Of a stretch of 64,000 nucleotides of DNA, positions 101-43,759 are shown piece after piece; position 1 is the stretch's first letter; each line of letters begins with the position of its first letter. Position numbers and translations under genes: made by a program. Where the stretch lies: NCBI RefSeq assembly GCF_004348825.1, contig NZ_SMJU01000009.1, forward strand, positions 1 through 64,000, given 5' to 3'. Below the pieces are notes generated by a model that worked only from the letters and a program-made list of their open reading frames with translations, did not search any database and was not told where the DNA came from. This DNA comes from Arundinibacter roseus (lineage in GTDB: Bacteria > Bacteroidota > Bacteroidia > Cytophagales > Spirosomataceae).

Positions 101-589
101 CTATTTTCCCATTGCAACAAGTCTATTAATATTTAGTTTATCAAATTTTTTATCTTCATAAAACAAATTCCATACGTCGTACTTAAAATAATCTAACTTT
201 AAAATATTTTGAAGATCTTTAATTGAATGAACGGGATCATAATTATTAGTTAAAGAAATGGTTTCTTGTTTTAAATTCACTAAATCATTTTCAAGTCTTT
301 CAAGTTGGTAGAAAAACATTTCAACAGCTTTTTCAATTTTATTTTTTTCGAATTGATACTTTCTTTTAATAGTGTCAATATTTTCTTTATAAATAGTTTC
401 TTCTTTTATTTTTTTCAGGTTTTTACTTTCAATAAACTTGACATACCAAATCATGATTAAAGCAAGAAAAGCAATGGATCCAAATAGAATTATATTTTCT
501 CCTATCACTTCAATAATTTTTGATAGCACCGCAAACACTGCTCCAATGATTACAAGTATAAAAACAGCTGAACCTTTTCCTTTTGCCAT
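101..589 (-). CDS. Small membrane protein with coiled-coil tail, function unknown
   Basis: The 162-residue product has two hydrophobic stretches, about residues 8-24 and 32-50, that look like a membrane hairpin. A charged, Lys/Glu-rich region from about 54 to 110 is probably helical or coiled-coil, and a soluble tail follows. I do not recognise the family. The gene is clearly more AT-rich than the housekeeping genes in the window, which fits recent transfer. It lies between a transposase-like start (downstream, same strand) and the first HEPN/MNT cassette, so it is best seen as accessory DNA. The start at 589 is the only good ATG. No defence or toxin motif is visible. Confidence 0.6.
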   Translation of the reverse strand: MAKGKGSAVFILVIIGAVFAVLSKIIEVIGENIILFGSIAFLALIMIWYVKFIESKNLKKIKEETIYKENIDTIKRKYQFEKNKIEKAVEMFFYQLERLENDLVNLKQETISLTNNYDPVHSIKDLQNILKLDYFKYDVWNLFYEDKKFDKLNINRLVAMGK

Positions 590-754
590 AAATAGTATCT
601 AATATAAATTGAATATTTAATCAAATTATTTGTATTTGTAAAATACCTTTTCCATAGGTTGTGTCTAAGAGCCCTGAAAACCAAAGCTACTATACACCGC
701 TACCTATTGAGACTTTTGTTTTTCAACCCAAAATCGGATGTGGTGCTTGCGAGC

Positions 755-773
755 GGGCTGTGCGACACAGCCC
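755..773. repeat. Perfect 8-bp hairpin in a gene-free stretch
   Basis: The stretch 590-823 holds no convincing gene. Its only clear structure is GGGCTGTG, loop CGA, CACAGCCC. No T-run follows on either strand, so it is not a standard terminator. It lies on the far side of the duplicated M24 tail, in what may be the original 3' flank of the M24 peptidase gene. Confidence 0.4.
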
Positions 774-823
774 ATGGAGGCTGGCTATCTATTTAAAAAT
801 AAATAATCCCACTAAAATCTCCC

Positions 824-953
824 CTCAGCGCACATACTCAATCTTTCTCGGAATCGTATATACTTCCGTTTGCCGGCCGTCGATGTAGCGGAAGCCGGTT
901 TTGTCATAGTAGCCATCTTCTTCCAGCATGATACGGATGGTTTTGTTCCATTC
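824..953 (-). pseudogene. Detached copy of the 3' end of the M24 peptidase gene
   Basis: This 130-bp segment aligns without gaps to 1741-1870, the last 42 codons plus stop of the M24 peptidase gene, at 124/130 identity. The six differences are at 828, 831, 855, 858, 861 and 881. Five are synonymous and one changes Asn to Asp; 882-953 is identical to 1799-1870. Mostly synonymous change means this copy spent time as the end of a working gene, either as this strain's original tail or as a relative's orthologous tail. It has no start and begins 2 nt after the stop of the HEPN gene. It marks the far border of the first HEPN/MNT cassette. Confidence 0.9.
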
Positions 954-955
954 GA

Positions 956-1345
956 TTATTCCAATAATTCTTCGATTCGCTTGATCAACTCATTCGCAGA
1001 TTCCAGCAAATCCAAAACATCTTCTTTTGAGTAATCCAAATAATCTTCGTAATCAGCGCTTTGTCTCATGGTGAAGATGCTGGAATAAAATCTTCCTAAC
1101 TCACTATCAATGAAGCCAGTTTTCACAAAGTGAAGACCAAACATTTGCCTCACTCCTGCGTGTGTATTCACGTTAATTTCGTGCCGTATCAGCAAAGCGA
1201 TCACAGCGTAATAGCAAGCATAATAAAGCCGATTCACAGCCGTATTCCATAAACCATTTTCCAGCAGGATAGCCACTTCGTTAAAGGTTTCTCTGGCTCG
1301 TTTGATCCTGTATATCGATAATTGAACCCGGTCTTGCTCTTTCAT
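956..1345 (-). CDS. HEPN domain protein, partner of MNT nucleotidyltransferase
   Basis: The 129-residue all-helical protein resembles the HEPN family (pfam05168 type): it has the core NRLYYACYYA near residues 39-48 and RQSADYEDY at 94-102. The canonical HEPN RNase motif R-x4-6-H is not visible, so ribonuclease activity cannot be assumed. In the family such proteins pair with minimal nucleotidyltransferases, often as toxin-antitoxin or nucleotide-transfer systems. The start overlaps the MNT stop by 4 bp (ATGA), indicating translational coupling. The stop is followed after 2 nt by the duplicated M24 tail. It could be a toxin or a substrate-binding partner of MNT; the sequence does not decide. 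Confidence 0.8.
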   Translation of the reverse strand: MKEQDRVQLSIYRIKRARETFNEVAILLENGLWNTAVNRLYYACYYAVIALLIRHEINVNTHAGVRQMFGLHFVKTGFIDSELGRFYSSIFTMRQSADYEDYLDYSKEDVLDLLESANELIKRIEELLE

Positions 1346-1659
1346 AAAACTTTCCCTTCCCGACTTACATTTTCATGAAAAGGCGTTTTTCCTTTGCGCG
1401 ATTCCCATTCTTTTTTTGAAAAAACCATGGGGCTGATTAACGTACCGGTTTCAAACTCGATATCGTATAGCGGGTAGGTAAGTCTTTTTTTATCAGCTGC
1501 ATTGATATATTCTTTATCAATCAGGATCAGCAAATCAAGATCCGAACCTTCGTTGTAGTCATCCCTGGCGTAGGAACCGAATAAGATCAGCGTAGCGGTA
1601 GGGTCTGTTGCTTTGACAGTGGCTTTCACCTGTCGGAGTAGTTCTTTTTTATCTTTCAT
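1342..1659 (-). CDS. MNT-type minimal nucleotidyltransferase
   Basis: This 105-residue protein has the nucleotidyltransferase signature GSYARDDYNEGSDLD (the GS-x10-DxD metal and nucleotide site) near residues 28-42, and a third acidic residue in LYDIEFETG. This is the minimal NTase (MNT) fold that pairs with HEPN proteins. In the characterised MntA/HepT system the NTase AMPylates its HEPN partner and neutralises it; that role here is inference. It is the first gene of a two-gene operon, overlapping the HEPN gene by 4 bp. It lies 82 nt beyond the M24 stop codon, on the same strand. Confidence 0.85.
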   Translation of the reverse strand: MKDKKELLRQVKATVKATDPTATLILFGSYARDDYNEGSDLDLLILIDKEYINAADKKRLTYPLYDIEFETGTLISPMVFSKKEWESRKGKTPFHENVSREGKVL

Positions 1660-1740
1660 CGCTCTAAGCCTGTGTTGATTAAATCTATGTTAAATTAATA
1701 AAATTTTGAAGAGATTTGACAACACTTCTGTCCCCCAACC

Positions 1741-1870
1741 CTCACCGAACATACTCAATCTTTCTCGGAATGGTGTACACTTCCGTTTGCCGGCCGTTGA
1801 TGTAGCGGAAGCCGGTTTTGTCATAGTAGCCATCTTCTTCCAGCATGATACGGATGGTTTTGTTCCATTC
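1741..1870 (-). repeat. Direct repeat: M24 3' end still attached to its gene
   Basis: This is the gene-proximal partner of the repeat at 824-953 (constant offset 917 bp, no gaps). It encodes the last 42 residues and stop of the M24 peptidase, including the EEDG segment that probably supplies the last metal-binding glutamate. Whatever moved the cassette in therefore left a complete catalytic C-terminus on the host gene. Confidence 0.9.
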
Positions 1871-3097
1871 CTCAATTTTCACCGCAGCATTCAGTTCAAT
1901 GGAATAGGCCGTATTGTCAAACAGCGGGTAGTCGCCGGGGCCTTTGATGCCTCCCTGTGCATCCCACATGCCAATGGTAGGGCCCGCAGCATGACCGTGC
2001 ACGCCAATCGGGTGCGTATAGATGGTGCCATTAATTGCTTCTTTTTGTGATTGAGCGAGCGCATCGGCCAAAATCTGATTGCCCGATTTTCCAGCTGTAA
2101 ATTGTTCCGTCAAAATCTCCTGCAAACGGTTTCCCTGCTGAAAGGCCTTTTTGAGGTAGTCTGGCACGTCGGTTTCACCGGGTTTGAGTACGTAGGCATG
2201 TTGCTGCTGATCGGTGTTGAGGCGCAGGTAGGTAATTCCAAAATCCAGGTGAAGAAGATCGCCGGGCAGAATCACCTGCTGACCGGGCCGCTTGGCGAAG
2301 GTGCGTAAGTGGTCAAAATTGGTAGCATCGGCGCGTTGAATATCGACCGTGGGATGAAACCAGGTATCAAGCCCCAAATCGGTGACGCGCTGCCGCAGAA
2401 ACCACACCACGTCGTCGGTGGTGGTGACGCCGGGCTGAATGACTTTTTCAGAAAATGCTTCCTGAATAATCTGATGCGAAATGCGGCAAATCATGGGGTA
2501 AATCGCCATTTCTTTTTCGGTGCGGGTTTCCAGCCACGCCACGGCAAGCCGGTCGGCGGATGTGACGCGGGCGTGAAAAGCTTTGGGTAATTTTTCCATA
2601 AATTCCTGCTGCTCGGTATGTGTCAGCCCGTCGGCGTGGGCATAGTTTTTAGAGAAATTGAGCGCAATTTTTTTAGGATTTTTTTGCTGAATTACCTTCA
2701 TCAGCGCGTCCCATTGATCAGGATTGGAGCTAATGTCCCACTCCCCTTTGAGCAGCGTACCGACATCGTAGCGGGCAATGGCCAATTTGTCCAACGGCTT
2801 ATTTTCTCCCGGATCATAAAATACCATGATGGTTCGGCGCCGGGCCGATAGCCACGTACTGGGCAGCATCGTTTTCATGACGGGGTCTTCGTTGTATTCC
2901 CGCGAAATAATCACCCACATATCTACGCCTTCCCGACGCATGAGTTGAGGAAGCAGATTTTCGAAGCGATCTTCCAGAATGGCGTCTACGGCTTCGGCCC
3001 GCTGACGCTCGGATAAAATGGTCGGGATGGTTTGGGCGGCTGACGAAAAGAGAATCAGTTGGCTGATGCAAAAAATAGCATAAAGTAAAAATCGCAT
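1742..3097 (-). CDS. Secreted M24-family metallopeptidase (Xaa-Pro aminopeptidase-like)
   Basis: The product (451 residues from ATG 3097) begins with a signal peptide ending near SSAAQ; an upstream ATG at 3163 would put extra residues before the signal and is less likely. An N-terminal creatinase-like half is followed by the pita-bread M24 domain. Likely metal ligands are Asp285 (HLDFG), Asp296, a His in THPIGVHGHAAGP, Glu401 (SIELN) and a Glu in LEEDG near 420. The family removes N-terminal residues next to proline; a periplasmic location suggests peptide scavenging. It is divergent from the esterase gene (89 bp apart). Its 3' end is duplicated beyond the HEPN/MNT cassette. Confidence 0.85.
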   Translation of the reverse strand: MRFLLYAIFCISQLILFSSAAQTIPTILSERQRAEAVDAILEDRFENLLPQLMRREGVDMWVIISREYNEDPVMKTMLPSTWLSARRRTIMVFYDPGENKPLDKLAIARYDVGTLLKGEWDISSNPDQWDALMKVIQQKNPKKIALNFSKNYAHADGLTHTEQQEFMEKLPKAFHARVTSADRLAVAWLETRTEKEMAIYPMICRISHQIIQEAFSEKVIQPGVTTTDDVVWFLRQRVTDLGLDTWFHPTVDIQRADATNFDHLRTFAKRPGQQVILPGDLLHLDFGITYLRLNTDQQQHAYVLKPGETDVPDYLKKAFQQGNRLQEILTEQFTAGKSGNQILADALAQSQKEAINGTIYTHPIGVHGHAAGPTIGMWDAQGGIKGPGDYPLFDNTAYSIELNAAVKIEEWNKTIRIMLEEDGYYDKTGFRYINGRQTEVYTIPRKIEYVR

Positions 3098-3186
3098 GAA
3101 ATAGTTTAGGTTATGATTTGACTCTAAAAATACGGATTCAGTTTGAATAGCAAAGTATAGCACGCGTGACAGTTTCTTTTTATCCC

Positions 3187-5130
3187 ATGAAAACTATAAA
3201 ATTAAGCACATACCTACTCTACTTTCTGCTGTCAGGAACGAGTACCGCATTTGCGCAATCCACAGAAAAAACTACGGTCTGGAAAGGTTTTGAAAAGGTT
3301 GAATTTGCCTTTGAAAACACCACTGCCTGGTACATCAAGCCTGCGCAGGCGCTACCCGGCAATCCGTGGGTGTGGCGGGCGCACTTCCCGACCTGGCATA
3401 CCGAGATGGACAGTATTTTGCTCAGCCGCGGCTTTCACATTGCTTACGTAAATACCAACGATTGGTTTGGCCACCCAAAGGCCATGCGCGTGTGGGATGC
3501 TTTTTATTCGTATCTGACGGGTAGCAAAAATTTTGCGCCCAAAGTTGCGCTCGAAGGAGTCAGCCGGGGCGGGCTGTATGTGTACGGATGGGCCAAACGA
3601 AATCCAGAGAAGGTCATCTGCATCTATGCCGAAGCGCCGGTTTGTGACCCAAAAAGCTGGCCGGGCGGACAGGGAAAAGGCACGGGCTCGCCCAAAGATT
3701 GGGAGCGTTGGCTGGAACTATACGGCCTTACCGACCAAACAGCAAAAGATTTTAAAGATATTCCGCTGCATAATCTGGAAGGAATGGCCGCCTTCAAGAT
3801 TCCGATTTTACACGTCATCAGCCTGAAAGACAAGATTGTGCCGCCCGAAGAAAACACGTTTCCACTCGTGGAAGCCTACACCCGACTGGGCGGCCCGGCG
3901 ACCATTTACTCCATGAGCCGAGGCGAACAAACGCTGGAAGGCCACCACTTCCCAATCGAGCATCCTGAGCGCTGGGCCGACTTCATTCAGCAGCATAGCG
4001 TGCCGGTACAGCAGCTGTTGCCGCATGAGCCCTACCTGGAACCTAATCGGGGCGTTGGAAATGCCTTGTCGGTTTTTGAGCGTAAAAAAGCAGGAACTGT
4101 GGCGTTTTTGGGAGGATCCATTACGCATAATCCGGGCTGGCGCAACAAAGTGGCGCAGTACCTGCAGGAACGTTTTTCGGATACGCAGTTTACCTTTATT
4201 ACGGCCGGAATTCCGTCGCTGGGAAGCACGCCGCATGCATTTCGTTTTGGAAAAGATGTGCTGGAAAAAGGAACACCCGACCTGCTGTTTGTCGAAAGTG
4301 CAGTAAATGACCGGACAAACGGTTTTAGTAAAGAAGCTCAAATTCGGGCCCTGGAAGGAATTTTGCAGCAAGCCTATGAGGCAAATCCCGCCATGAGCGT
4401 AGTACTGATGCCTTTTGCTGATCCCGACAAATTTGGCGACTACAACGCTGGTAGAGAACCGGTTGAGGTAGCGGTGCATCGGCAGGTAGCAGCACATTAC
4501 GGCGCTTCGTTTATTAATCTTTCGCAGGAAATCTATGACCGTGTACAGGCCAGGGAGTTTTCGTGGACATATGATTTTAAAGATTTACATCCGTCACCCT
4601 ACGGGCAGGAACTTTACTTTCAATCCATCAAGACTTTATTACAAAATGCGGATCTGAATTCTCAAACTGAATCTATTCAACTTCCTGCGCCGCTCGACAA
4701 ATTTTCGTATTCAAAAGCTCACTACGTAGCACTTGAAGAGGCTGAACCTACCAAAGGTTTCAAGATTGATCCCCAATGGAAACCCTACCCTCCGCTGGCT
4801 ACCCGACCGGGTTTCGTGGATGTTCCGATGCTCATCGGCGAGGTAATCGGTGATTCTTTTAAACTGAATTTTACTGGAAGAGCCATTGGAATTGCCGTAG
4901 TTTCGGGGCCTGATGCCGGGATTTTGTCCTATCGGATTGACGGTAAAAAAGCCCAAACGATTGACCTGTTTACTCAATGGAGTCAACAACTGCATCTGCC
5001 GTGGTACCTTTTGCTGGCCGATACGCTGAAACCGGGGAATCATACAGTAGATGTGACCATTTCGGACAAAACAAATCCGGCAAGCTCTGGAAACGCCTGC
5101 CGGATCGTGTATTTTCTGGTCAATGACTAA
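3187..5130 (+). CDS. Secreted two-domain esterase: alpha/beta hydrolase plus SGNH/GDSL hydrolase
   Basis: The 647-residue protein starts with a signal peptide ending TAFAQS; this decides for ATG 3187 over the in-frame GTG at 3166. The N-terminal half has an alpha/beta-hydrolase nucleophile elbow GVSRG in VALEGVSRGG and a likely His in GHHFPIEH. The second half has SGNH blocks: GGSITHN (Ser), VESAVND (Asn) and DLHPSPYG (Asp/His). A final beta-rich region of about 120 residues may bind carbohydrate. Such pairings suggest deacetylation or de-esterification of polysaccharide, which is inference. It converges with the DUF1338 gene, their stop codons directly touching at 5130/5131. Confidence 0.8.
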   Translation: MKTIKLSTYLLYFLLSGTSTAFAQSTEKTTVWKGFEKVEFAFENTTAWYIKPAQALPGNPWVWRAHFPTWHTEMDSILLSRGFHIAYVNTNDWFGHPKAMRVWDAFYSYLTGSKNFAPKVALEGVSRGGLYVYGWAKRNPEKVICIYAEAPVCDPKSWPGGQGKGTGSPKDWERWLELYGLTDQTAKDFKDIPLHNLEGMAAFKIPILHVISLKDKIVPPEENTFPLVEAYTRLGGPATIYSMSRGEQTLEGHHFPIEHPERWADFIQQHSVPVQQLLPHEPYLEPNRGVGNALSVFERKKAGTVAFLGGSITHNPGWRNKVAQYLQERFSDTQFTFITAGIPSLGSTPHAFRFGKDVLEKGTPDLLFVESAVNDRTNGFSKEAQIRALEGILQQAYEANPAMSVVLMPFADPDKFGDYNAGREPVEVAVHRQVAAHYGASFINLSQEIYDRVQAREFSWTYDFKDLHPSPYGQELYFQSIKTLLQNADLNSQTESIQLPAPLDKFSYSKAHYVALEEAEPTKGFKIDPQWKPYPPLATRPGFVDVPMLIGEVIGDSFKLNFTGRAIGIAVVSGPDAGILSYRIDGKKAQTIDLFTQWSQQLHLPWYLLLADTLKPGNHTVDVTISDKTNPASSGNACRIVYFLVND

Positions 5131-39257: not shown

Positions 39258-42110
39258 TTGTTACAACTGAAAAATATACGGTTTAGTATATGGCTGTGTT
39301 TGTGGGTTTTCCTGCTTACTGAACCTGTCTTTGCTCAGCAACAATCGGGCCGGAGCGGCAGCCTGTTTCGTAAAGATAAAAAAACGGATGCGAAAACGCC
39401 CGCCGATACGGCTGTGGTGCCGCGATTGGCTTTGCCAACAGATACTCTTCCGGCTACTGACACGACGGGCATTCGTAGAAGTGGCCTGCGCGTAACTACC
39501 GACTCCACTACGACAGATTCGCTGTCTAGTACAAGTGACCTCCAATCGACGGTAGAATACCACTCCGAAGACTCAACGATTACGGATGTAGAAAAACGGC
39601 AGGTGCATTTGTACGGCGATGCTGAGGTAAAATATGGTACTATCCAGCTTAAAGCCGCCTATATCCGAATTGACTGGACAACCAACGAGATTTTTGCCGA
39701 AGGCCGCTATGACTCCACTGCCAAAAAAACCATAGGCGAACCCATTTTTCAGGATGGCCCTGAAAGCTACAATACCCGTGAACTACGCTACAACTATAAA
39801 ACCAAGAAAGGATTCATCCGGGGGGTCGTCACGCAGCAGGGCGAGGGTAATATCCGGGGAGATAAAGTCAAGAAAGACGACGAAGGCAATCTCTACATTC
39901 GCGGTTCTATTTACACCACCTGTAATCTGACACACCCGCATTTTTTTATCAATGCGCCAAAAATCAAACTGATTGACAACAAGCAGGTAGTTTCGGGACC
40001 GTTCAATCTCGTCATTGCCGATGTGCCTTTGCCCGTAGGTTTGCCGTTTGGTTTTTTCCCTTTTCCCAAGAAAAAAGAAACGGGCACTTCGGGTATTCTG
40101 TTTCCGGCCTACGGCGAAGAACCCAACGGTCGGGGTTTCTTTTTGCGGGATGGCGGCTACTATTTTGCCGTTAGTGAATACTTCAACGCCAGCGTCACCG
40201 GGCAGATCTACTCCACCGGAAGCTGGGGTTTGGGCGTAAGCTCGGTGTATACCAAGCGCTACCGCTACAACGGAAATGTGGCCCTGCGCTTCAATAGAAA
40301 CCGTTCCGGCGACGAGCTCGACAAGCTCCTGAACCGTCCGGGCCGAAACGATTTCAGCGTGATTTGGTCGCACTCACCCGTTCCGCGGGGAAATTCCAAT
40401 TTTTCGGCCAATGTAAACGTGACGAGCAATAGCTTCAATCAGTTTAATGCACTCGACAATCAGCGCTATATTTCAAACGTCGCCAGTTCGTCGGTGCAGT
40501 ACAACCGTACCTTTGGGCAGTACGCACGGGCCGGGGCGAGTCTCCGGGTCAATCAAAACTTTGGGCAGGTCAATACAGCTAGCGGGCGGCGGGAAAATGG
40601 CAAAACGGATGTTTCGACGCAGTTTAACTTTGGTATCAATCAAATTGCGCCCTTTGCCCTTAACGGCGGCCGGGGTCGGTGGTACGAGAGTTTCCGTCTT
40701 GGTCTCGATTTTAACGGAAATTACAGCGTCAACAACTCACTCTCGGCCATTGATACGTCTTTCTCGCGCCTGGGCTTTGTGGTTGTGAACGCCATTGATA
40801 CCTCGCGCGTGGGTGGCGAAACCATTCTGCCATTTGACCTCAACAACCTCCCGGCTTTGCTGCGCGATGCGCAGTTTACGGGCCGATATTCGCTGCCGAT
40901 TTCGTTGCCAAACTTCAAACTGCTGCGCTTCGTCAATTTTACCCCAAGCCTTTCGTTGCAGGGCGAGGTTTTTACCAAACAATACAATTACCGCTATTTG
41001 GGTGATAATCGGGTGCAGATTGATACGCTGAACAAAGTAGGCTCCGAATATAGCTATTCGTTTGGTGCGGGCATGAACACCCGTTTTTACGGAACGTTTC
41101 AGATTCAGGGGAAACGACTCGAAGCCATTCGCCACACCGTAATTCCGTCTATTTCGTTTAGCTATACGCCTGATTTTTCGGGAGATAATTTTGGGTTTTA
41201 TCAGCGAATTCAAATCAATGAACTGGGCGATTCACGCTTTTTGTCGCGCTACCGAGGCATTGGCAACAGCTTTACGTCGAGCGACGGGCGCGCTTCGGGA
41301 GTTATTTCATATAGTCTAAATAACTCTTTTGAAATGAAGCTGCGGTCCAAAAGCGATACTGCCAATCAGCAATTTGAAAAAGTTTCGCTGCTGGACAACC
41401 TGAGTTTTGGCGGTAGCTACAACCTCATGGCTGACTCACTGAATCTCTCCAACATTTCGATCAACGCCAATGCGCGCGTGGGGCAAAACCTGAACATGAA
41501 CTTCAACATGACGCTCGATCCATATGCCTACATTGCCGATCCACGCAGTGCGAGCAATACGGCTGGTCTCAAAATCAATGAGTTTGCCATCAGTCGCGGG
41601 CAGGGACTGGCACGGCTGCAAAACATGAACGTTGCGCTGAGTACGAGTTTTAACCCAAAAAAGAAAAGTACTGAACAAACCACCAAGCCTGCCAACACCA
41701 CCGCCACGGAAGAACAACTCGAATTTATTGACCGCAATCCCGATCTGTATGTAGATTTTAATATTCCCTGGAATATCTCCCTCAATTACAACTTCGGACT
41801 CAGCCGATTTGGTTTACAAAAAGCCTCCCTCATCCAAACCGTTAGCGCCACCGGTGACCTGAGCCTGACGCCCAAGTGGAAAATCAGCTTGAATACCGGT
41901 TTTGACTTTGTAGCCCTGAGCCCTTCCATCACCACGGTGTCGCTCTACCGCGACCTGCACTGCTGGGACATGTCCTTCAACTGGACACCCTTTGCCGGCA
42001 GTCAGTTTCGGGCAAGCAACTACTCCTTCACGCTCAAAGCGAAATCCTCCATTTTACAGGATCTCAAACTCACCCGCCGCCGCTCTTTCTACGATCAAAG
42101 CGGGTTTTGA
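39258..42110 (+). CDS. lptD: LptD-like outer-membrane LPS assembly protein
   Basis: The 950-residue protein starts at a TTG (39258) with a signal peptide ending EPVFAQQ; no in-frame ATG lies before the signal. A low-complexity stretch (to about 85) is followed by an OstA/LptA-like domain (HLYGDAEVKYGTIQLKA, about 115-250) and a beta-barrel of about 650 residues ending DQSGF, with the terminal Phe expected of an outer-membrane beta-signal. It would insert LPS in the outer leaflet. Its last 51 bp plus 15 bp are duplicated after the MntA/HepT cassette that follows. Confidence 0.8.
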   Translation: MLQLKNIRFSIWLCLWVFLLTEPVFAQQQSGRSGSLFRKDKKTDAKTPADTAVVPRLALPTDTLPATDTTGIRRSGLRVTTDSTTTDSLSSTSDLQSTVEYHSEDSTITDVEKRQVHLYGDAEVKYGTIQLKAAYIRIDWTTNEIFAEGRYDSTAKKTIGEPIFQDGPESYNTRELRYNYKTKKGFIRGVVTQQGEGNIRGDKVKKDDEGNLYIRGSIYTTCNLTHPHFFINAPKIKLIDNKQVVSGPFNLVIADVPLPVGLPFGFFPFPKKKETGTSGILFPAYGEEPNGRGFFLRDGGYYFAVSEYFNASVTGQIYSTGSWGLGVSSVYTKRYRYNGNVALRFNRNRSGDELDKLLNRPGRNDFSVIWSHSPVPRGNSNFSANVNVTSNSFNQFNALDNQRYISNVASSSVQYNRTFGQYARAGASLRVNQNFGQVNTASGRRENGKTDVSTQFNFGINQIAPFALNGGRGRWYESFRLGLDFNGNYSVNNSLSAIDTSFSRLGFVVVNAIDTSRVGGETILPFDLNNLPALLRDAQFTGRYSLPISLPNFKLLRFVNFTPSLSLQGEVFTKQYNYRYLGDNRVQIDTLNKVGSEYSYSFGAGMNTRFYGTFQIQGKRLEAIRHTVIPSISFSYTPDFSGDNFGFYQRIQINELGDSRFLSRYRGIGNSFTSSDGRASGVISYSLNNSFEMKLRSKSDTANQQFEKVSLLDNLSFGGSYNLMADSLNLSNISINANARVGQNLNMNFNMTLDPYAYIADPRSASNTAGLKINEFAISRGQGLARLQNMNVALSTSFNPKKKSTEQTTKPANTTATEEQLEFIDRNPDLYVDFNIPWNISLNYNFGLSRFGLQKASLIQTVSATGDLSLTPKWKISLNTGFDFVALSPSITTVSLYRDLHCWDMSFNWTPFAGSQFRASNYSFTLKAKSSILQDLKLTRRRSFYDQSGF

Positions 42111-42121
42111 GGTAGGGTAAA
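42056..42121 (+). repeat. Direct repeat: lptD 3' end (copy attached to the gene)
   Basis: These 66 bp, from codon about 934 through the lptD stop and 11 nt beyond, are identical to 42797-42862 (offset 741). Identity stops abruptly at both ends. Confidence 0.95.
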
Positions 42122-42148
42122 GCAGACGAAAATAAAAAAATAATGTGC

Positions 42149-42159: not shown

Positions 42160-42441
42160 ATGATAACATCTCAACAACAAAAGCTCATCTGCGATGTGGT
42201 AGCCAAACTAAACCCGAAAATGGTTGGGGTTTTTGGTTCGTATGCCCGAAATGAGCAAAAAGCTGGCAGTGACCTCGACTTGCTTATTGAATTTGACACA
42301 AGAGTAAATCTTTTGGATCTAATTGGCCTGGAACAGGAACTGACCGAGCTATTAAAAATTAAAGTAGACCTGATTACCCGGCGATCCGTGAGCGAACGAT
42401 TGTTGCCATACATTCAAAAAGATCTAATTCAAATTCTTTGA
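42160..42441 (+). CDS. MntA-type minimal nucleotidyltransferase (antitoxin)
   Basis: The 93-residue protein (ATG 42160; an in-frame GTG at 42145 is possible) has GSYARNEQKAGSDLD, the GS-x10-DxD motif, and a third Asp in KIKVDLIT. In the characterised MntA/HepT pair this enzyme attaches AMP units to a Tyr of the HEPN toxin and blocks it. The partner here has that Tyr, so the same role is likely. The stop TGA shares one base with the HepT ATG. The gene starts 50 nt after the lptD stop. Confidence 0.88.
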   Translation: MITSQQQKLICDVVAKLNPKMVGVFGSYARNEQKAGSDLDLLIEFDTRVNLLDLIGLEQELTELLKIKVDLITRRSVSERLLPYIQKDLIQIL

Positions 42442-42791
42442 TGGAGAAAAACCCGGTACTTTATCTTCAACATATACTTGAATGTATCACTAAAATCAAA
42501 CAATATACAGTCGGATTTGATGAACCAGGCTTTTTGGAAAATAGCCTGGTTCAGGATGCAGTAATCCGAAATTTTGAGATAATTGGTGAGGCAACCAAAC
42601 ATCTTGATTCAGATTTCAGATTGAAATATCCAAAAATCGAATGGAAAAAAATCGCTGGAATGAGAGATAAGTTAATTCACGATTATATTGGCGTTGACTT
42701 GTGGGCTGTTTGGGCAGTCATTGAGGATATCCTTCCTGAGCTGGAAAAGCAAATCAATTACATAATTGAAACTGAAAATAATAAATCCTAA
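42441..42791 (+). CDS. HepT-type HEPN toxin (DUF86)
   Basis: The 116-residue helical protein is a HepT/DUF86 HEPN RNase with the complete R-x4-H-x-Y motif RDKLIHDY: Arg75, His80 and Tyr82. Arg and His form the RNase site, and Tyr is the residue modified by MntA in the known system. GEATKHLD near 49-56 is also typical. Together with mntA it is a type VII toxin-antitoxin pair. The stop is followed after 5 nt by a copy of the lptD tail. A damaged second copy of its first codons lies at 42898-42957. Confidence 0.88.
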   Translation: MEKNPVLYLQHILECITKIKQYTVGFDEPGFLENSLVQDAVIRNFEIIGEATKHLDSDFRLKYPKIEWKKIAGMRDKLIHDYIGVDLWAVWAVIEDILPELEKQINYIIETENNKS

Positions 42792-42796
42792 TTGCA

Positions 42797-42862
42797 ACAG
42801 GATCTCAAACTCACCCGCCGCCGCTCTTTCTACGATCAAAGCGGGTTTTGAGGTAGGGTAAA
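42797..42862 (+). pseudogene. Detached copy of the lptD 3' end
   Basis: A 66-bp exact copy of 42056-42121, including the lptD stop and 11 nt beyond. It has no start and lies 5 nt after the HepT stop. It is the far border of cassette 2, as 824-953 is for cassette 1. Confidence 0.93.
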
Positions 42863-42884
42863 TCAATTAGTATAATTTATTGAT

Positions 42885-42957
42885 TTTGAATCTATTAAAT
42901 TCTTTGATGGAGAAAACCCGGTACTTTATCTTCAACATATACCGGATTTGATGAACT
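42885..42957 (+). pseudogene. Decayed remnant of a second mntA/hepT junction
   Basis: From 42898 the sequence matches the start of hepT (original near 42431-42476) except for one missing A in the run after ATGGAG, then jumps by an internal deletion to a part matching 42514-42525 (GGATTTGATGAAC). The 13 nt before it loosely resemble the end of mntA. Because it follows a lptD tail copy, it looks like what remains of a second cassette in tandem. Confidence 0.75.
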
Positions 42958-43029
42958 AAGGTTCTCCTTTCATGACGCTAATTGCTACGCTACGTCTTAA
43001 CCAGAATCTTCCGTAGGACAGAATTCTGA

Positions 43030-43245
43030 AAGTTACTCACCTCAGCTGTTTTATATGAAAAAGCAGCTTTTGAGGTAGGTAATGTAGAAGATGAAAATTG
43101 GATTTATTTTTCATGGAAAATTTACATCAACCGTGAACTGACTACCCGCATTCTGGAACTTGGCGATGATGCCGTTGTAGTGGAACCGGAATCACTGCGT
43201 AAAAGAATTTTAGAAGTTTTGAGAAATGCAATCGAACAGTATTAG
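43030..43245 (+). pseudogene. C-terminal remnant of a WYL-domain regulator
   Basis: An open frame with no start codon runs for 72 codons to the TAG at 43243-43245. Its end (NRELTTRILELGDDAVVVEP, then ESLRKRILEVLRNAIEQY) has the typical close of WYL/YafY-type transcription regulators (family pattern: LxxRILxLGxxxxVLEPxxLRxxIxxxLxxA). A stop precedes it and no upstream WYL core is seen within 170 bp, so it is a truncated relic. WYL proteins often sit with defence genes. Confidence 0.65.
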
Positions 43246-43283
43246 CGACGTTACTTCAATCAGGCTGATAGCTATCCCCTCAC

Positions 43284-43320
43284 AAAAAAAGCGCTTCCCT
43301 GTACCGAACAGGAAAGCGCC
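43284..43320 (-). terminator. Terminator after the DUF1573 gene
   Basis: On the minus strand GCGCTTTCCTGT pairs with ACAGGGAAGCGC with one mismatch, followed by a T7 run. Confidence 0.8.
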
Positions 43321-43354: not shown

Positions 43355-43759
43355 TTATTTCTGAGTAGAAGGCTTGGCCGCCGCTTCTTTGGTCACAACC
43401 TCCCCTTTCAAAAAGAGCGTCAGGCTTGGCGACTCGGCGTTGCTAAACACCGTGATAGATTTATTGAAAGCTCCCATAGCGGCAGCGTTGTAAGTCGCTT
43501 TGATGGTGCCGGTCTGCTTGGGCAACACGGGCGCTTTGGTATATTCGGGAGTCGTACAGCCGCAGGAAGCGCTCACGTTGGAAATCACGATTGGCTGCGT
43601 GCCGGTGTTTGTGAAGGTAAACTCCGTAGTAACAGGCTTGCCTTGTGCGATTTTACCAAAGTTGTGCGTCTCTTCTTTGAACTTCATGACGCCTTTCTGA
43701 GCAAAGCTCACAGAAGCGACTGACAACAGGATTACTAATACAGAAAAAATCTTTTTCAT
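43355..43759 (-). CDS. Exported DUF1573 protein
   Basis: The 134-residue protein has a signal peptide ending SVSFAQ and a single Ig-like DUF1573 domain (FKEETHNFGKIAQGKP, then FTNTGTQPIVISNVSASCGCT). DUF1573 proteins are abundant in Bacteroidota and resemble periplasmic immunoglobulin-fold proteins; function is unknown. A Lys/Ala/Pro tail ends the protein. It is monocistronic with its own promoter and terminator. Confidence 0.85.
   Translation of the reverse strand: MKKIFSVLVILLSVASVSFAQKGVMKFKEETHNFGKIAQGKPVTTEFTFTNTGTQPIVISNVSASCGCTTPEYTKAPVLPKQTGTIKATYNAAAMGAFNKSITVFSNAESPSLTLFLKGEVVTKEAAAKPSTQK

Follow-up and report, generated by a model that had tools for sequence, protein, structure and literature searches.

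The window, that is, the whole stretch of 64,000 nucleotides of Arundinibacter roseus DNA that was analysed, carries behind the gene lptD an intact pair of genes resembling mntA and hepT, followed by pieces of both lptD and the same pair (Table 1). The order is tail 1, mntA-hepT, tail 2, hepT scrap and tail 3, the tails being the 3' end of lptD and its copies; in other words, two cassette slots lie between three lptD tails. The remnant of a WYL-type regulator gene that comes next is probably the old flank of the insertion site. The sole other match of this remnant in the same genome is 43% identical.

Table 1. Features found behind lptD in the window.
Feature	Position	Strand	Description
lptD	39258..42110	+	host gene, 3' end copied; Pfam LptD_2 PF19838, E 1e-136
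tail 1	42056..42121	+	native: final 55 nt of lptD and 11 nt downstream
mntA	42160..42441	+	nucleotidyltransferase antitoxin, intact; PF01909 E 2e-14; NCBIfam MntA_antitoxin 50.3 bits, cut-off 60
hepT	42441..42791	+	HEPN RNase toxin, intact; PF01934 E 8e-28; NCBIfam HepT_toxin 48 bits, cut-off 60
tail 2	42797..42862	+	66-nt copy, identical to tail 1
27-nt stretch between tail 2 and scrap	42863..42889		no significant match
second-cassette ruin	42890..42956	+	final mntA and first hepT nucleotides, then (34 nt deleted internally) 14 more of hepT
tail 3	42968..43083	+	decayed copy of lptD 42006-42122
WYL-type regulator remnant	43087..43245	+	C-terminal WCX domain; PF25583 E 1e-8
DUF1573 gene	43355..43759	-	ancestral neighbour of lptD; seen in 19 of the 29 lptD stretches from relatives

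The catalytic motifs of this class of proteins are GS...DxD in MntA and Rx4-6H in HepT, and the translations contain GSYARNEQKAGSDLD (MntA) and RDKLIH (HepT). The two genes are adjacent and their products match PF01909 and PF01934 above the gathering scores. Since both proteins score below the equivalog cut-offs of NCBIfam, the pair is to be regarded as a relative of MntA-HepT and not as an equivalog. It resembles the HEPN/MNT (HepT-MntA) toxin-antitoxin system, as portrayed in PMC7641770, in the families matched, in the mntA-hepT order and in the overlapping stop and start codons, and it differs in the scores just mentioned. The label 'type VII' is found in the NCBIfam names and in the abstract of PMC11586414. 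No solved structure matching HepT by sequence was found.

The original prediction placed a detached copy of the lptD tail behind hepT, and this was borne out, the 66 nt at 42797-42862 being identical to the final 55 nt of lptD, stop codon included, together with the 11 nt beyond. When the comparison is widened to 42056-42124 and 42797-42865, a single difference appears, at 42122. Tails 1 and 2 are spaced by 741 nt, and a long direct repeat of the target flanks a module without a transposase. The heptamer AAATCCT begins 14 nt ahead of ACAG in lptD and again at the junction of hepT and tail 2, and is a possible microhomology.

Behind tail 2, positions 42890-42942 align with 42422-42477 with 53 matches, no mismatches and three 1-nt gaps. 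After a gap of 34 nt, 42943-42956 are identical to 42512-42525, and the 7 nt past 42956 align poorly to hepT (3 of 7 mismatched). From hepT (start at 42441) the scrap retains 50 nt, made up of the first 37 without one A and 14 from further on, and from mntA the final ~18 nt only; the catalytic motifs of both MntA and HepT are absent. A remnant with the hepT start, one missing base, an internal deletion and a further piece of hepT had been proposed, and the alignment agrees with it (53 nt, 34-nt gap, 14 nt). The accompanying claim of a segment from the end of mntA stood for the ~18 nt mentioned and failed for 42864-42889, whose resemblance to the cassette is not significant (score 12.4; median of shuffles 11.6, 95th percentile 14.0). 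The resemblance of 42864-42889 to the 3' end of hepT is likewise within chance or at its edge, scoring 12.4 in forward and 15.4 in inverted orientation when the best of 300 shuffles scored 15.8. Perhaps 42863-42889 correspond to a decayed promoter region of mntA. The distance from the scrap to tail 3 is about 10 nt.

The scrap fits best the neighbouring hepT. In a comparison across 91 loci containing hepT relatives, one of them the window's, the intact neighbour scored 50.4 and the other 90 at most 22.8, so that the derivation from another hepT family, the refuting condition named with the original prediction, is rejected. An origin elsewhere in the genome is ruled out as well, since a search of the window's genome (labelled G000) with 42783-43260 gave three matches at E ≤0.001, all of them in this locus. 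One other HepT homologue was found in the same genome, 41% identical in protein. Nothing in the plasmid records matched 42800-43290 in a single distant search.

A third lptD tail, which the original prediction had overlooked, is located at 42968-43083 and is ~75% identical to lptD 42006-42122; the repeat finder alone gave a 20-nt likeness at 43060-43079. The part of this tail homologous to 42056-42133 reached a local score of 66, whereas the best of 2000 dinucleotide shuffles reached 36; without its clear 20 nt it still exceeded all 2000 of them (36 against 31). With transitions weighted, one shuffle in 1000 and two of the 368 other lptD positions matched the score of its left extension, whereas an earlier unweighted test was weaker (8 of 500). 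Identity over 42006-42133 is 91 of 122 ungapped columns, of which the last dozen on the right are not significant alone. The extension to the right, into the mntA leader, was reached by 204 of 1000 shuffles and so lacks significance, and because of this a duplication of 78 nt, considered at one stage, was abandoned. We also considered 43060-43079 as part of the WYL-type gene and rejected it. The best intact WYL relative is homologous from 43087 onwards and not before, and for this reason tail 3 probably does not belong to that gene, even if a relative with a weaker match, L137, permits an alignment that extends more to the left.

The lptD site is free of the cassette in the relatives examined, as no match to mntA or hepT was obtained in the lptD stretches of 29 of them; the DUF1573 gene is present in 19 of these stretches, and no intermediate stage of the site was seen in the 29. 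A terminator-like stretch is often found 3' of lptD in the six relatives' stretches that were read. The tail motif was matched in 63 of 222 genomes of the family and an adjacent pair of matches occurred in G000 only, so the absence of a second tail applies to the 63 matching genomes and not to all 222. Within this scope, relatives without the module have one lptD tail.

Loci similar to mntA-hepT were collected from the family, the GTDB species and the class, giving 180 loci, 177 of them distinct and 175 with enough flank; in one search, 89 of 108 candidate places outside the window's genome were examined. Omitted from the counts were L036 (the own-genome homologue), L039 (the same place as L054), L048, L078, L091 and L108 (too little flank). 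A close truncated copy of the same cassette (at least 80% identical) in the same locus was found in three of the 177: the window, L095 and L129. Locus L129 has mntA and hepT pieces that are 92% identical and have large internal deletions, together with four or five repeat pieces, and the same repeat brackets its intact cassette. This is the best parallel to the ruin in the window, although its repeat may be of another kind because it shows a hairpin tendency (z -2.6). At L095 (2486-2804), a 177-nt mntA piece, 96.6% identical, and 38 nt of hepT lie ~1.3 kb upstream of the intact pair, with no visible tail repeats.

Bracketing, defined as a direct repeat within 400 nt on each side with E up to 1e-3, was found in 40 of the 175 loci, a figure in which L067 and L152, apparently one CRISPR-array locus, are counted twice. 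Control positions within these loci gave 10 of 563 (Fisher p 3e-18). With repeats of at least 40 nt the numbers are 27 loci and 7 controls. The bracketed loci are a mixed set that includes CRISPR, attC-like and other repeats, and 13 of the 40 have more than two repeat copies within the locus (E 1e-4). The downstream copy begins at most 60 nt past the hepT stop in 17 of 23 selected loci. Among the 39 bracketed loci listed, 11 have an upstream ORF (100 aa or longer) whose stop lies no more than 60 nt from the upstream copy; they include L061, where copy and ORF overlap by 3 nt only, and L204, with a repeat of 19 nt. The arrangement in the window, with a copy occupying the 3' end of a long ORF upstream, recurs in L054, L130, L154, L180 and L223.

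Other arrangements were observed in this set. At L067 (3560-5987, seemingly the same as L152), mntA-hepT is placed at one end of a CRISPR-like array, whose units beside the cassette have, by eye, a ~51-nt insertion in the repeat. In L151 (959-3010) a ~124-nt repeat separates mntA-hepT from a DUF433-DUF5615 pair, and more genes resembling toxin-antitoxin genes were seen by eye on either side. In L169 (1097-1901), each side of mntA-hepT has an attC-type hairpin repeat of 53 nt (TAAC...GTTAG), and the pair is probably an integron cassette.

Integron cassette arrays have the order repeat, cassette, repeat and contain several toxin-antitoxin cassettes in series. The locus in the window shares with them this order and, at the related sites described below, several such cassettes in a row. 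An insertion of integron type, with the lptD tail as an attC-like site, or a classical transposon, could be thought of, the tail-cassette-tail order being like that of ORF-attC arrays and the bracketed locus L169 having a hairpin repeat (z -5.5) which we take to be attC-like. We consider it very improbable. The genome has no integron integrase above the cut-off (TIGR02249: 8 matches, the best 119 bits against 265), and sub-cut-off matches occurred likewise in 14 of 14 control genomes. Moreover shuffled sequences fold as well as the lptD tail does (z -0.7), the cassette has no transposase gene, and the repeat is no hairpin but the coding 3' end of a resident gene.

Two other genes, both in other genera, have been found with copies of their tails behind them. 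In L180 (genome G376) the copied tail, of 59 nt, is that of asnS, for which the NCBIfam asparagine--tRNA ligase is the best model over the C-terminal 150 residues. A single asnS tail is present in five of six other genomes of the genus of G376, with about 1.5 kb behind the match examined; in four of these five the flank behind the L180 cassette follows the asnS tail, and in L241 this flank was not found. Altogether, five of seven asnS loci are without a tail copy.

In genome G346 (L243, reverse strand; reverse-complement coordinates 499-3377), the genes behind asnS are a HEPN-MNT pair and then a ParE-like toxin whose small partner has no Pfam match, each of the two followed by a tail copy. In the first of these displaced tails the reading MTNVRDVIPFPRTPKNAEF-stop is kept; it is identical to asnS of another species at 54 of 63 positions and to that of its own genome at 46 of 63, as if it had arrived with a cassette from elsewhere. 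Replacement changes are found in the second displaced tail of G346 and in the displaced tail of L180.

The gene fcl, encoding GDP-L-fucose synthase, was matched in 40 of 45 genomes of genus g50 and 30 of its loci were fetched. A copy of its tail within 1.5 kb is absent in 27 of these (two of them with less than 1 kb of flank) and present in three. In G398 (L263) mntA-hepT stands alone behind fcl, with a copy of the fcl tail. In G539 (L194 1609-3204) a DUF5615 cassette is interposed between fcl and mntA-hepT, and in G635 (L261) a PIN-toxin cassette between fcl and a HepT gene, in both cases with fcl tail copies between. The stacks behind asnS and fcl hold differing toxin-antitoxin pairs, unlike the repeated mntA-hepT proposed at lptD.

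For the window we lean, with modest confidence, towards an old insertion followed by recent tandem copying of tail and cassette and then by collapse of the spare copy. An mntA-hepT cassette lacking a transposase would have had its insertion point at the 3' end of lptD, and this old insertion would have left a downstream copy of the lptD end, the present tail 3. Later, the unit of tail 1 to the hepT end, which accounts for the 741-nt spacing, would have been duplicated in tandem by unequal exchange, by re-entry of a circle of tail plus cassette or by illegitimate duplication, giving tail 1, cassette, tail 2, second cassette and tail 3. The spare cassette would then have been free to decay, and deletions may have reduced it to the scrap. 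From the comparison of the copies we infer this order of events, as well as the former completeness of the second cassette. Since no substitution is found over 53+14 nt of the scrap and the 66 nt of tail 2, both are young, and tail 3, at 91 of 122, is old and therefore predates them.

The ruin in L129, the insertion with a tail copy at asnS and the stacks at asnS and fcl support the tandem reading. Two cassettes once in tandem had already been proposed in the original prediction, and the slots are now better supported because tail 3 closes the second one and a ruined second unit exists in L129. That so little of both genes is left, about 18 nt of mntA and 50 nt of hepT, speaks against the tandem reading, as does the lack of an intermediate in the 29 lptD stretches of relatives. 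Three large deletions in a time without any substitution are also much to assume, and tails 2 and 3 end at the same point, an outcome not predicted by a plain tandem copy with random deletion. Moreover the tandem reading gives no explanation for 42863-42889.

It could also be that there never was a second cassette and that template switching, at a fork or during repair, copied the lptD tail (66 nt), the hepT-start patch (53 nt) and the 14-nt patch. This would account for a cassette present as short substitution-free patches in one cluster, with 27 nt ahead of them that match nothing. We regard it as unlikely, as the patches are collinear with the cassette and placed between two tails, like the real stacks and the L129 ruin, and the three extra 1-nt deletions favour decay after copying.

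Alternatively, the scrap might be an older insertion, together with tail 3, and the intact cassette a later independent arrival beside lptD that produced tail 2. Identity of the lptD tails falls with distance from the gene (100%, about 75%), the asnS tails of G346 are 46/63 and 43/63 identical to the native one, those of L061 are 89, 86 and 85%, and differing cassettes do stand in series behind fcl (G539) and asnS (G346). The fcl tails of G539 (77/80 and 76/80 to the native one) are neutral, their order being uninformative. Such successive arrivals predict, however, that scrap and tail 3 are of equal age, and the scrap is free of substitutions relative to the intact hepT when tail 3 is ~25% diverged. 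Two separate arrivals at lptD thus seem quite unlikely to us, and tandem copying with collapse of the spare remains our preferred explanation for the window.

Insertion of restriction-modification systems with long target duplication was reportedly described by Nobusato et al. in 2000 and by Furuta et al. in 2010. Passages of PMC3874152, PMC3031569 and PMC1643837 describe such insertions with a long target duplication of variable length. A passage of PMC3031569 states that restriction-modification units, when placed between direct repeats, can be amplified in tandem through unequal crossing-over, and likens this form to products of long target duplication. The locus in the window agrees with these descriptions on three points: the module is selfish and has no transposase, it is flanked by a directly repeated target whose length varies and is of the order of 100 bp, and relatives carry the target once. 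The locus differs in that the module is a toxin-antitoxin pair and the target a gene end, in that differing pairs are stacked at one gene, and in that the reading of one displaced asnS tail is still that of a seemingly functional gene end from another lineage. Because the module is not a restriction-modification system, an identity for which Pfam gave no indication, the locus falls outside the group as defined. Decay of chromosomal toxin-antitoxin loci by in-place deletion is treated in a passage of PMC7167474, whose reference list includes ccdO157; what was lost in the window, unlike in that passage, is the superfluous one of two cassettes that probably stood in tandem.

Our literature searches, which covered titles, the starts of abstracts and some passages, returned no report of toxin-antitoxin stacks separated by copies of gene tails. 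These stacks of unrelated pairs are a more interesting result than the ruin at lptD, and suggest that such pairs accumulate at gene ends without a transposase. We would tentatively propose, as a possibility we hold with considerable doubt, that the 3' ends of lptD, asnS and fcl may be landing sites for transposase-free toxin-antitoxin cassettes. Each arrival would add a cassette and a copy of the tail, sometimes the tail of another species, and mixed stacks would grow and, when redundant, erode, which would amount to an integrase-free array with a gene end as its attachment site. The copies of gene tails between cassettes provide a signature of how toxin-antitoxin pairs of the chromosome might move when no mobile element carries them, with a count against controls, and since natural intermediates exist (empty, single, stacked and ruined sites), insertion, stacking and decay become directly testable.
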